Shown here piece by piece: positions 23,481-27,041 of a DNA stretch of 39,583 nt. The position numbers and the translations under genes were made by a program. The notes below the pieces were generated by a model, which saw nothing but the letters and a program-made list of their open reading frames with translations, had not been told where the DNA came from and did no database searches. The number at the start of each line of letters is the position of its first letter. Positions within the stretch are counted from its first letter, which is position 1. This DNA is from an uncultured Clostridia bacterium (lineage in GTDB: Bacteria; Bacillota; Clostridia; Christensenellales; Borkfalkiaceae), in the NCBI GenBank assembly GCA_944341075.1, contig CALVLV010000018.1:1-39583 (forward strand). The letters are read 5' to 3'.

Positions 23481-23650
23481 GTTCACGAATTTTGACGGCG
23501 GGCCGCGCCGTTAAAATTCCGTGAGTTTGAGAAACCAGGTTTCTCTGGTGGCATTTTTTAGTGCCCTCGATTATAGAAATGCCGCCATTCACTTCCGGTG
23601 AGCCTGCTGACCGCAGCAAATTGTGTCTTTCTGCGCAAGGAAACCTTGCT
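23481..23650. repeat. structured hairpin-chain element, copy A (after parC)
   Basis: It begins GTTCACGAATTTT five bases after the parC stop. Stems in order: AATTTTgACGGC with GCCGTtAAAATT inside TCACG/CGTGA; GAGAAACC/GGTTTCTC; GGTGGCATTT/AAATGCCGCC; TCAC/GTGA; GCTG/CAGC; GCAAGG/CCTTGC. Copies B (24789) and C (26863) keep the linkers CCGTGAGTTTG, GGTGAGC and CAAATTG but change both arms of the stems. Confidence 0.75.
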
Positions 23651-23651
23651 T

Positions 23652-23685
23652 GAAACGTTAATTATTTTAGAAACGTTAATTATTT
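23652..23685. repeat. two direct repeats of GAAACGTTAATTATTT
   Basis: The 16-mer is at 23652-23667 and 23670-23685, a period of 18, right after the structured element. Purpose unknown. Confidence 0.5.
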
Positions 23686-23696
23686 AAAAAACAATT

Positions 23697-23930
23697 GTCA
23701 TTTCGACCGAGCGGTAGCGAGCGGAGAAATCTATTCCGCATTATAGCCTCCTCTATTAGGGGAGGTGGCTTAACTGAATAAAGTAAAGTTAAGGCGATGG
23801 GATTTTTTTGAGATTTCTCGACTACGCTCGAAATGACGGAGCGTATTATAGCCTCCTCTAATAGGGGAGGGGCTTGCCCGTGAGGGTGTGTCGGTGGGAT
23901 TTGACAAAATCTTCGTGACTTGGAAAAACT
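23697..23930. repeat. MITE-like repeat with embedded CT-rich module
   Basis: GTCATTTCGACC at 23697 and CTCGAAATGAC ending 23837 form inverted ends, with GGAGAAATCT and GAGATTTCTC inside. A hairpin CCTCCTC/GGGGAGG, then GGTGGC, CTTAACT/AAGTTAAG and GGGATTT are nested between. A second CCTCCTC/GGGGAGG module follows to about 23905, and AAAATCTTCGTGACTTGG near 23907-23925 matches the 12834 element. Confidence 0.55.
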
Positions 23931-23943
23931 TGTTTTACTACGG

Positions 23944-23971
23944 GGCCTCCGCTGTATGCGGAGGCCTTTTT
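23944..23971 (+). terminator. intrinsic terminator before grpE
   Basis: GGCCTCCGC (23944-23952) pairs with GCGGAGGCC (23958-23966), with TTTTT following. It would end transcripts from the parE-parC unit after the repeat block. Confidence 0.8.
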
Positions 23972-24128
23972 GCGTGCCGTGCGGGCATACGTTGCCTTTT
24001 CGCGCGCGTGCGTGCGCGTACATAAATATAATCGGGCGGATATGTAAAATTTTTTGTGATTTTTTGGTTAAAGGCGGCGGGCGTTGTTTATATTATTACT
24101 GTAAAACAAAAAGCGAGATCAAATCGAC

Positions 24129-24785
24129 ATGTTCAACGACGAAGAAGATAAAAAGAAAAAAAAGGCGCGCCCCGCAAAAGAGGAGGGGAAGCCCGAGGCT
24201 GAAGTAGCCCAAGGCGACCTGCCCGAAGCGGAAGACCCTGAAAAGGAGCTCCCCGCAGAGGAGCCCGAAGAGGAACTCCCCGAGACGGAAGACCTTGATA
24301 AGGAGCTTCCCGCAGAAGAGGCGCCCGAAAAGCCCGCCGAACCTTCGGAACTTGAGAAGGCGCAGGCGCTCGCCGAAGATTACAAGCGCAAGTGGTACGC
24401 CGTATCTGCCGAATATGATAACTACCGCAAGCGCACCGCCGCGCAGGCCTCAAAGGCATATGCAGACGGCAAGGCAGAGGCAATTTTAAAGCTTTTGCCC
24501 GTATCGGACACCTTCGGCTACGCGCTCGATTCCGCCAAGGACGAGGCGACTAAGGCAGGCATAGATAAAATAATCAAAAATTTTACGGCAATTCTCTCTT
24601 CGCTCGGCGTAGAGGAAGTGCCCGTAAAGCCGGGCGATAAATTCGACGAGCTTGTGGCCGAAGCCGTTATGACCGTTCCCTGCGGCGAGGGCGAGCAGCC
24701 CAACACCGTAAAGTTTGTGCTCAAAAAGGGGTACACGCAGAATGGTAAAGTTATAAGGTTTGCCCAGGTTTCCGTCACGGTTTAA
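24129..24785 (+). CDS. grpE: GrpE nucleotide-exchange factor
   Basis: 218 residues. The N-terminal 75 residues are acidic and low complexity with near-repeats (EKELPAEEPEEELPETEDL, DKELPAEE). The conserved GrpE body follows: long helix (AEDYKRKWYAVSAEYDNYRK), then FGYALDSAKDEATKAGIDKI and the beta-wing (EGEQPNTVKFVLKKGYTQNG). It releases ADP from DnaK in the cytoplasm. No hrcA lies upstream and I see no CIRCE dyad. Ribosome site is weak (GAG about 10 bases before ATG). A hairpin-chain element, not a close neighbour, follows. Confidence 0.93.
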   Translation: MFNDEEDKKKKKARPAKEEGKPEAEVAQGDLPEAEDPEKELPAEEPEEELPETEDLDKELPAEEAPEKPAEPSELEKAQALAEDYKRKWYAVSAEYDNYRKRTAAQASKAYADGKAEAILKLLPVSDTFGYALDSAKDEATKAGIDKIIKNFTAILSSLGVEEVPVKPGDKFDELVAEAVMTVPCGEGEQPNTVKFVLKKGYTQNGKVIRFAQVSVTV

Positions 24786-24788
24786 AGA

Positions 24789-24970
24789 GTTCACGAATTT
24801 TTCGCTTTGGTGACACGTGAAAAATTCCGTGAGTTTGGGGAGCCAGCTCCCCCTGACTGCAATTTCTGAATGCTCACTTATTATATAATTGCAGTCATTC
24901 CCCCTTTGGTGAGCTCGCTCGCGCGACAAATTGGGGCGCGCTAACGGCGGGAAACCCGCCTTGCGCAAAG
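24789..24970. repeat. structured hairpin-chain element, copy B (after grpE)
   Basis: It starts four bases after the grpE stop with GTTCACGAATTTTT. Stems: AATTTTTC/GAAAAATT; GGGGAGC/GCTCCCC; GACTGCAATT/AATTGCAGTC; GCGC...GCGC enclosing CGGCGGG/CCCGCC. Linkers match copies A and C while paired bases differ. Its last stem ends seven bases before TATAAT (24977-24982), the likely -10 of dnaK; the -35 of that promoter is poor. Confidence 0.75.
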
Positions 24971-25053
24971 CTATTGTATAATAAATCGACTTGCCCTGTG
25001 AAGGGCGCATAAAAAAGCAACTACACTTTATTTTTAGTGGGAGGACATGACAA

Positions 25054-26859
25054 ATGGGAAAAGTAATTGGTATCGACCTTGGCACGACTAACTCGTGCGT
25101 GGCAGTTATGGAGGGTGGCGAACCCGTAGTTATACCCAACAGCGAAGGCAGCAGAACTACCCCTTCGGTAGTATCTTTCAAGGCAGACGGCTCGCGTATA
25201 GTCGGCCAGGCGGCAAAACGCCTTGCCGTTGCGCAGCCCGATAAAACAGTAATTTCAATAAAGAGGCACATGGGCGAGGCCTATAAAGTCAACATCGACA
25301 AGGGATATTCCCCTCAGGAGATATCCGCGATGATCCTTTCAAAGCTCAAGGCGGACGCCGAAAGCTACCTCGGCGGCAAGGTTACCGATGCGGTGATCAC
25401 CTGCCCCGCATACTTCAACGACTCGCAGCGCCAGGCCACCAAGGACGCGGGCAAGATAGCCGGACTGAATGTGCTCCGTATAATAAACGAGCCCACGGCG
25501 GCAGCGCTTGCATACGGCCTTGATAAGCAGGAAGGCAGCCAGAAGGTCATGATATACGACCTCGGCGGCGGCACGTTCGATGTATCTATACTTGAAATAG
25601 GCGACGGCGTGTTCGAAGTGCTTGCCACCAACGGCGATACCCACCTGGGCGGCGACGACTTCGATAACAAGATAATCGACTGGCTTGTAGAAAACTTCAA
25701 GCGCGATACGGGCGTAGACCTTTCAAAGGATAAAATGGCTATGCAGAGGCTCAAGGAGGCGGCAGAAAAGGCCAAGATAGAGCTTTCGGGCATGACCAAC
25801 ACCAACATAAACCTGCCCTTCATCACCGTGGTGGACGGCGCTCCCCAGCACCTCGACTACGACCTTTCAAGGCAGAAGTTCGACAGCCTTACCTCCGACC
25901 TTGTTGAGCGCACTGTTGAACCCATGCGCAAGGCAATGCAGGATGCAGGCCTGACTTATAACGATATTTCAAAGGTAATAATGGTGGGCGGTTCTACCCG
26001 TATTCCCGCCGTTTACGATAAGGTAAAGGCAATAACCGGCAAAGACCCCTTCAAGGGCATCAACCCCGATGAATGTGTGGCCATCGGCGCGGCAATTCAG
26101 GGCGGCGTGCTCTCCGGCGAGGTAAAGGACGTGCTCCTTCTGGACGTTATGCCCCTTACCTTGGGCATTGAAACGCTCGGCGGCGTATCTACGCCCCTCA
26201 TCGAGCGCAATACCACCATCCCCGTAAAGAAGAGCCAGGTATTCTCTACCGCGGCAGATAACCAGCCCGGCGTTGAGATCAACGTTCTGCAGGGTGAAAG
26301 GAAGTTCGCAAAGGACAACAAGTCGCTCGGCAGGTTCATGCTCACCGATATACCTCCCGCACCCCGCGGCGTGCCCCAGATCGAAGTTACCTTCGATGTC
26401 GACGCAAACGGCATCGTAAACGTGACCGCCAAAGACCTTGGCACGGGCAAGTCTACAAACATAACCATCACGGCTTCGACCAACCTCTCCGAAGAAGATA
26501 TCGACAGGGCGGTAAAGGACGCCGAGCGCTATGCCGAAGAGGATAAAAAGCGCAAAGAGGCCGTTGACAACAAGAACAACTTAGAGGGCATGATAGACAG
26601 CCTTGAAAAGACGGTAAAGGAGGCAGGCGACAAACTCACCGAAGACGACAAGAAGACGGTGGAGGACGCCATAGCAAAGGCCAAGACCGAGCTCGATTCG
26701 GGCGACGCCGAAAGGATCAAGGCGGCAGGCGAAGAACTTTCCCGCGAGATCCAGCCCGTTATAGCAAAGATATACCAGCAGGCCCAGGGTGCCGCAAACG
26801 GCGGCAACGGCGGCAACGGCGGAAATCCTGATGACACGGAGTTCAATCAGCACAGCTGA
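25054..26859 (+). CDS. dnaK: Hsp70 chaperone DnaK
   Basis: 601 residues, ATG nine bases after GGGAGG. The ATPase domain has [50 protein letters not shown] and [14 protein letters not shown]. The substrate domain starts near 375 ([15 protein letters not shown]), and the helical lid ends in a Gly/Asn-rich tail (ANGGNGGNGGN). It lacks the 24-residue insert of proteobacterial proteins, as is normal in Gram-positives. It folds and holds unfolded proteins with DnaJ and GrpE. A structured element begins four bases after the stop. Confidence 0.97.
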
Positions 26860-26862
26860 TTA

Positions 26863-27041
26863 GTTCACGAATTTTAACGGCGGGCCGCGCCGTTAAAATT
26901 CCGTGAGTTTGAGGAACCAAGTTCCTCTGGCGGCATATTTAAGTGCCCTGCATTATAGAAATGCCGCCATTCACCTCCGGTGAGCCCGCTGCCGCGGCAA
27001 ATTGAGTCGCGCTTAACGGCGAACTAAATTCGCCTTGCGCA
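26863..27041. repeat. structured hairpin-chain element, copy C (after dnaK)
   Basis: It starts GTTCACGAATTTT. Stems: AATTTTAACGGC/GCCGTTAAAATT, perfect here where copy A has a G-T; GAGGAAC/GTTCCTC; GGCGGCAT/ATGCCGCC; TCACC/GGTGA; GCGC...GCGC enclosing CGGCGAA/TTCGCC. Confidence 0.75.

Follow-up and report, generated by a model that had tools for sequence, protein, structure and literature searches.

The 39,583-nucleotide stretch of DNA analyzed here (hereafter the window; contig CALVLV010000018.1 of assembly GCA_944341075.1, one contig of a 44-contig, 1.87-Mb genome labeled G000) contains three full copies of a hairpin-chain repeat of about 175 bases (family range about 175–190 bp), located just past the stop codons of parC, grpE and dnaK. 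We conclude, with a probability of roughly 0.6, that these are non-autonomous mobile repeats of Candidatus Coproplasma, the genus within the Clostridia to which the gut bacteria carrying them belong, that an enzyme acting in trans reads them as folded single-stranded DNA, that their first hairpin (stem 1) is set against a gene border, and that effects on neighboring genes are secondary. Stem pairing seems to be preserved in the DNA itself and not for the sake of a functional RNA. Twenty-two full copies of this genome were aligned (alignment A1), the structure was set at 54 pairs in seven helices, and a covariance model (R1) was built from the same 22 copies. The copies in the window, and the stems placed in copy 1 from A1, are:

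23481–23655, + strand: element copy 1 (R1, 191.1 bits), 5 nt past the parC stop codon
23483–23524, + strand: stem 1 of copy 1, the gene-facing end (arms 23483–23499 and 23507–23524; A1 columns 3–19 with 27–44)
23529–23545, + strand: stem 2 of copy 1 (GAGAAAC/GTTTCTC; A1 alignment and structure)
23546–23587, + strand: stem 3 of copy 1, with a loop containing ATTATA (A1 alignment and structure)
24789–24966, + strand: element copy 2 (R1, 170.2 bits), 3 nt past the grpE stop codon
26863–27040, + strand: element copy 3 (R1, 180.2 bits), 3 nt past the dnaK stop codon
12836–12973, + strand: a fourth, partial copy made up of stem 1 and a nested hairpin module (R1, 26.9 bits, E = 1.5e-6), 2 nt past an open reading frame (ORF) ending at 12833

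The order from the 5′ end is stem 1 (TCAC ... GTGA; a single C is bulged, in copy 1 on the 3′ arm), stem 2, stem 3 with its ATTATA loop, a weak stem 4, stem 5, AAATT, and a terminal hairpin with an outer stem 6 and an inner stem 7, followed by a tail near ACGTTAATTATTTTAGAA. In copy 1, the A+T-rich 3′ tail runs on to about 23672 (by eye). The hairpins are near-perfect; their arms vary between copies as whole Watson-Crick blocks, and conserved linkers join one hairpin to the next. Copy 2 carries other alleles of stems 1–3 than copy 1, and stem 6, for instance, reads GCGC/GCGC, TTTC/GAAA or TTGC/GCAA. The original prediction, made from the sequence alone, had described the three elements 3–5 bases past the stop codons, as well as the linkers and stem variants, all of which were confirmed, the ORFs ending at 23475, 24785 and 26859; dozens more copies in the genome, the partial copy and the terminal hairpin with its tail are additions to it. 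The stem-3 loop might hold a promoter, ATTATA being TATAAT on the opposite strand, but none of five predicted promoter-like sites lay over the loop in the three window copies.

Covariation was scored in A1 and in a larger alignment, A2, containing 138 copies (136 distinct) from G000, a second genome (G002), 19 other genomes of the genus and five named contigs; A2 was fitted to R1 and is hence biased towards that structure. In A1, standard pairs made up 91.0% of pair cells (78.0% after shuffling, 33.7–47.9% with the partner slid by 1–3 columns), the covariation score was 0.380 (0.163 shuffled, with 0/500 shuffles as high; 0.05–0.13 with slid partners), and both-sided changes were found in 28/54 pairs. 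One of the five measures, the number of further pair types, showed no excess over shuffles in A1 (51 vs 52.4; 385/500). For A2, standard pairs were 93.8% vs 70.7% shuffled, both-sided changes occurred in 49/54 pairs, the covariation score was 0.536 vs 0.155 shuffled, and no shuffle of 500 reached the observed value in any of the five measures. Stem 4 had the weakest pairing (80.9% in A2) and is the least certain helix. The initial observation that sequence drifts while pairing stays is borne out at more than chance level, one of the five measures in A1 excepted.

Gene calling relied on a simple, unvalidated codon-based caller that may place start codons wrongly. Full copies (R1 ≥ 100 bits) were counted where a called gene lay on both sides, giving 46 in G000 and 43 in G002, the two genomes with the most matches, both about 95% complete. 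The genes preceding the three window copies are:

20992–23475, + strand: parC, DNA topoisomerase IV subunit A (PF00521, DNA_topoisoIV, E = 3.6e-154)
24129–24785, + strand: grpE (PF01025, GrpE, E = 4.4e-34)
25054–26859, + strand: dnaK (PF00012, HSP70/DnaK, E = 6.4e-251)

The 5′ end (stem 1) lay within 25 nt of a gene in 30/46 copies in G000 (3.7 expected, P about 3e-24) and 31/43 in G002 (3.3 expected, P about 3e-27), or 61/89 with both genomes pooled (about 7 expected), where expected counts assume uniform placement within the same spacers. For the 3′ end the count was 0/89 (P of none 0.018 and 0.031). What the element abuts depends on the direction of the gene: the stop codon if both are on the same strand, the start side if they are on opposite strands. 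When the 5′ neighbor was on the same strand (51 copies), 38 copies lay within 10 nt of its stop codon, with gaps of −16 to 8 nt (−16 meaning that the ORF enters the element). The 5′ neighbor was on the opposite strand in 21/46 copies in G000 and 17/43 in G002, and 23 of these 38 copies were 5–23 nt from the start codon, many with a Shine-Dalgarno-like sequence between element and gene (by eye). In L027, L165 and L168, the TAG stop codon of the gene upstream ends in the element's first G. An ORF-based form of the rule (limits 30 nt for stop and 35 nt for start codons; no random control) held for 23/34 copies from other genomes or contigs, a set made up of the best one or two copies per genome, in which some named contigs may duplicate species of other genomes. 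As a control, matches to six other intergenic repeat motifs in the same loci were measured, and 0/99 lay within 25 nt of a gene; this control is imperfect, since each motif comes from inside a longer repeat and the loci had been chosen for containing R1 copies. Because these motifs lacked edge placement, insertion targeting is ranked above one-sided selection as the reason why the 5′ end faces the gene. Of the roles originally proposed, that of a non-autonomous repeat at gene ends gained support from the dispersal of the copies and from their varying presence and orientation at orthologous spacers, and had to be extended, since the start side of genes is used too.

A nucleotide search of the 1.87-Mb genome with element 1 returned 51 matches (E ≤ 10). 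The covariance-model search of the genome and its relatives, which the original prediction had proposed, gave 92 matches at E ≤ 1 in the source genome, the weakest of which are partial or overlap the reverse strand of other copies. At E ≤ 0.01, R1 matched 22/41 genomes, all of the same genus (22/25 genus genomes, own included), with 1 to at least 67 matches per positive genus genome; none of 16 genomes from other families of the order matched. At E ≤ 0.001 in 200 genomes drawn from the order, nine matched: six belong to the same genus and three, whose matches are weak (best 6.5e-11), to a different genus within its family, with none from another family. Compared with named Candidatus Coproplasma metagenome-assembled genomes, the DnaK of the window had an identity of 97% for C. 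stercoravium, 96% for C. excrementigallinarum and 95% for C. excrementavium, the closest named among the contigs found with DnaK. Three contigs of the source genome break within element copies (C8 and C4 at the end, C31 at the start).

Sequence comparison with repeat databases was made with Rfam only. At the gathering score, Rfam matched only tRNA in the whole window, with no match to the element, in agreement with the earlier statement that no named family has this layout. At E ≤ 10, six weak matches far below gathering were returned for 23470–27060 and rejected as chance, including two of MIR7510 on stem 1 (22.1 and 18.1 bits vs a gathering score of 93). Element 3 had no blastn match in phage and plasmid collections. 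Of two patterns searched in IMG/VR, one had no match and the other a single one, in a contig with phage-like ORFs and without an R1 match, which was taken as chance.

Selection on a sense-strand RNA should make G-U cells exceed A-C cells in the stems. The counts, which all include copies with common ancestry, were 131 G-U vs 150 A-C over all cells, 48 vs 59 when each distinct stem haplotype was counted once and degenerate haplotypes were dropped, and 44 vs 41 once stems 2 and 4, whose alignment is poor, were set aside. In a small control, 11 tRNAs present in the retrieved loci had 8 vs 1. The lack of an overall G-U excess is evidence against selection on a sense-strand RNA. By haplotype, stem 1 had 16 vs 16, stem 2 had 3 vs 14, stem 3 had 12 vs 20 and stem 4 had 1 vs 4; the stop-side copies (43) had 40 vs 45. 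Replication template switching has been described as a single-step process by which perfect stems can arise and be restored (PMC8794818), and therefore block-wise compensatory change alone is no proof of a functional RNA.

The dnaK loci of 44 relatives were searched with R1. A match was found beside dnaK in eight, and a ninth (L096) had one weak 16-bit match. In the grpE-dnaK or dnaK-dnaJ spacer, R1 matched the plus strand in the window, L059 (one match) and L070, and the minus strand in L059 (two), L060 (weak), L061, L063, L069, L072 and L079; L064, L066 and L067 have short spacers there with no R1 match. L059 and L063 share one dnaK-dnaJ insertion (by eye), and insertions are therefore also inherited. 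L064 has an apparent half of stem 1 next to the dnaK ribosome-binding site (by eye), perhaps a deletion scar. Ends were compared in 74 copies. The 5′ end is G(T/C)TCAC..., with G at −2 in 54/74, T or C at −1 in 73/74 and then TCA in 74/74, and the 3′ end is ...TTATTTTAGAA or similar; the two are not complementary. No terminal inverted repeats were found by inspection of both ends, no target-site duplication was detected (mean longest common flank word 3.65 vs 3.80 shuffled, with a maximum of 4.01 in 200 shuffles), and no copy had a GTAG tag beside a hairpin. The family is small in size, folded and dispersed in many copies, as a miniature inverted-repeat transposable element would be, but a strict assignment to that class is opposed by the lack of terminal inverted repeats and target duplication. 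Model scores of four tandem pairs gave a mixed answer to the idea that the copy closer to the gene is the newer one.

We propose that copies spread by insertion, aided by an enzyme that would act in trans on folded single-stranded DNA, and that insertion would set stem 1 against the gene border. The single-strand route is inferred because hairpins lie near both ends and terminal inverted repeats and target duplications are absent. Pairing would then be maintained by template switching within hairpins, by the need for a folded DNA substrate, or by both, and any influence on the adjoining gene would be secondary.

Several results count against this proposal. The edge rule did not hold in 28/89 full copies; five of the 28 are preceded 5′ by a second R1 copy at most 400 nt away, and a few others (L022 and L014, by eye) may reflect missed genes or start codons. 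G-U exceeded A-C in stem 5 (5 vs 2), stem 6 (7 vs 3) and stem 7 (4 vs 0), so that the 3′ hairpins lean toward RNA. The start-side copies (26) had 23 G-U vs 42 A-C, the direction expected under selection on an antisense transcript, to which this excess weakly points. Only diverged relatives had empty spacers, which leaves the exact points of insertion unproven. No autonomous, ORF-bearing copy was present among the copies inspected. Neither Y1_Tnp (PF01797) nor RVT_1 (PF00078) had a match in G000, G002 or G006, with control genomes positive for both, which makes both the best-known single-strand transposase and retrotransposition less likely. In G014, also rich in copies, Y1_Tnp was again without a match and RVT_1 had two. 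Two further searches were uninformative: Y2_Tnp (PF04986), the transposase of IS91-like elements, matched 0/7 genomes, but the control genomes gave no match either, and Phage_integrase, considered with regard to integron attC sites, was present in 10/10 genomes including three without R1 matches.

A more ambitious form of the mobile-repeat proposal, which we put forward tentatively and consider doubtful as a whole, is that the family is mobile DNA that recognizes gene borders: a fixed hairpin end would be placed against a same-strand stop codon or an opposite-strand ribosome-binding region by an undescribed enzyme reading folded single-stranded DNA, and stems kept by template switching would show RNA-like covariation without a functional RNA.

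Three other explanations were weighed. A cis-acting structured RNA (3′-UTR stabilizer, processing site or attenuator) under selection in the transcript would explain the strong covariation in A1 and A2, the 38/51 same-strand copies close to a stop codon and the G-U lean of stems 5–7. We regard it as unlikely, in that G-U was no commoner than A-C overall, the 5′ gene was on the opposite strand in 38/89 full copies, which thus cannot belong to its 3′-UTR, R1 was missing or flipped at orthologous genes, and Rfam gave no match at the gathering score. For attenuation in particular, a terminator scan of 23470–27290 found four sites vs 6.1 expected, though two of the four lie within element 1. The structured RNA or 3′-UTR element and the attenuation module first suggested as candidate roles are accordingly not supported.

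Somewhat less probable still are neutral or decayed insertions that landed anywhere in spacers, after which only those touching an edge were kept or the intervening DNA was deleted. Gene borders may tolerate insertion without gene breakage, and the half stem 1 in L064 suggests that deletions occur; however, the rule is one-sided (61/89 for the 5′ end and 0/89 for the 3′ end), and it is not shared by the six other repeat motifs of these loci. Least likely of the three are IS200/IS605- or REP/RAYT-like elements mobilized by a Y1 (HUH) transposase whose gene the sampled genomes would have lost in the meantime or would carry in their missing part. The absence of a terminal inverted repeat and of target duplication, the hairpins near both ends, the bulge in stem 1 and the occurrence of Y1_Tnp in 11/41 genus genomes would fit, but none of the copy-rich G000, G002, G006 and G014 has a Y1_Tnp match, OrfB_IS605 had no match in G000, and the GTAG tag is absent.

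The mobile repeat proposed here has relatives in kind. ERIC and RU repeats are single long palindromes, not a chain of hairpins, and bcr of Bacillus cereus comprises short structured repeats of one species group; BOX, RUP, ERIC, REP and bcr are of the same general kind as the Coproplasma repeat. In its way of working it resembles HUH single-strand transposition (no terminal inverted repeat, no target duplication, end hairpins, fixed orientation to a border), but the genomes richest in copies lack a Y1 match and copies lack the GTAG tag. BOX of Streptococcus pneumoniae, viewed by its authors as parasitic non-autonomous repeats, is likewise modular, hairpin-rich, intergenic and restricted to one species group; compared by description, it differs in that it is reported to have terminal inverted repeats like those of ISSpn2, and no one-sided gene-edge rule is stated in the part available (PMC3049150). 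The GTAG- and CGTC-tagged REP palindromes with their RAYTs are also small palindromes near or overlapping genes, those of the CGTC type are likewise without a dedicated transposase, and the ends of GTAG REPs may supply a TAG stop codon, a role that the initial G of the Coproplasma element plays in a few copies; REPs differ as tagged palindromes of 20–40 bp, vs an untagged multi-hairpin chain here (PMC3733652). Stem-loop families of 40 bacterial genomes, compared by description, show that intergenic families with a common fold are frequent, and 7/92 span coding-sequence borders, so that closeness to gene edges has precedent; the accessible text differs in mentioning no gene-directed orientation (PMC2267715). 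ERIC and RU-1, RU-2 and RU-3 of enterobacteria, compared by description, are intergenic mobile repeats of 103–168 bp, in this respect like the Coproplasma elements (PMC2759123). In a literature search over titles and abstract openings of open papers, with little coverage of subscription papers, neither this family nor a one-sided edge rule was described, and no entry combined such a rule with a hairpin chain, restriction to one genus and this pattern of pairing.

Other sequences are nested in or lie beside the repeats. At L019 13080–13545 and L028 3010–3590 (minus strand), a nested module of roughly 285–400 nt sits at the tip of stem 3 with the outer fold intact; it is bounded by the inverted repeat AAGCCG.GTGC... 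/ ...GCACTCGGCTT (by eye). A stem-2 nested module, GTCTCG...GCGGTAAATTACCGC...CTCGGTCACC..., is present at window 12836–12973, L019 2580–2890, L021 7865–8240 and L024 2800–3130 (by eye). A third nested hairpin of about 50 nt occurs near stem 4 in some copies, and is in L059, not in its ortholog L063 (by eye). A second repeat type is related to the element and opens with a hairpin of the same kind (TCACGCGAAATCTTT...). One pattern for it was run against the loci of the source genome: 6/15 matches start within 25 nt of a gene (one of these being an R1 copy itself), and 7/15 lie directly 3′ of an R1 tail. It is represented in the window by:

29257–29316, − strand: first 60 nt of the second repeat type (TCACGCGAAATCTTTCCGC...), 3 nt past the stop codon of the minus-strand gene 29320–30333

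Further repeat families (GTCATTTCGACCGAGCG...GAGAAATCT; CTCCCTTGCCAAAGGGAG) were found in spacers 3′ of elements at window 23698–23875, 13009–13173 and 3647–3744 and at many loci of this genome. A 202-nt repeat has two copies, 95% identical, at 18238–18439 and 29017–29218, and a 50-nt piece of each is 70% like 12887–12936. A 9-nt periodic repeat at 1266–1436 is possibly a Gly-X-Y coding pattern (by eye).

If the edge rule reflects insertion targeting, some enzyme would sense where a coding sequence begins or ends. The repeat is a natural case of strong covariation without clear selection on a sense-strand RNA, and as such a warning for covariation-based RNA discovery. The element may also shape the layout of the genome in this uncultured gut lineage, with other repeats on its far side in the spacers read.

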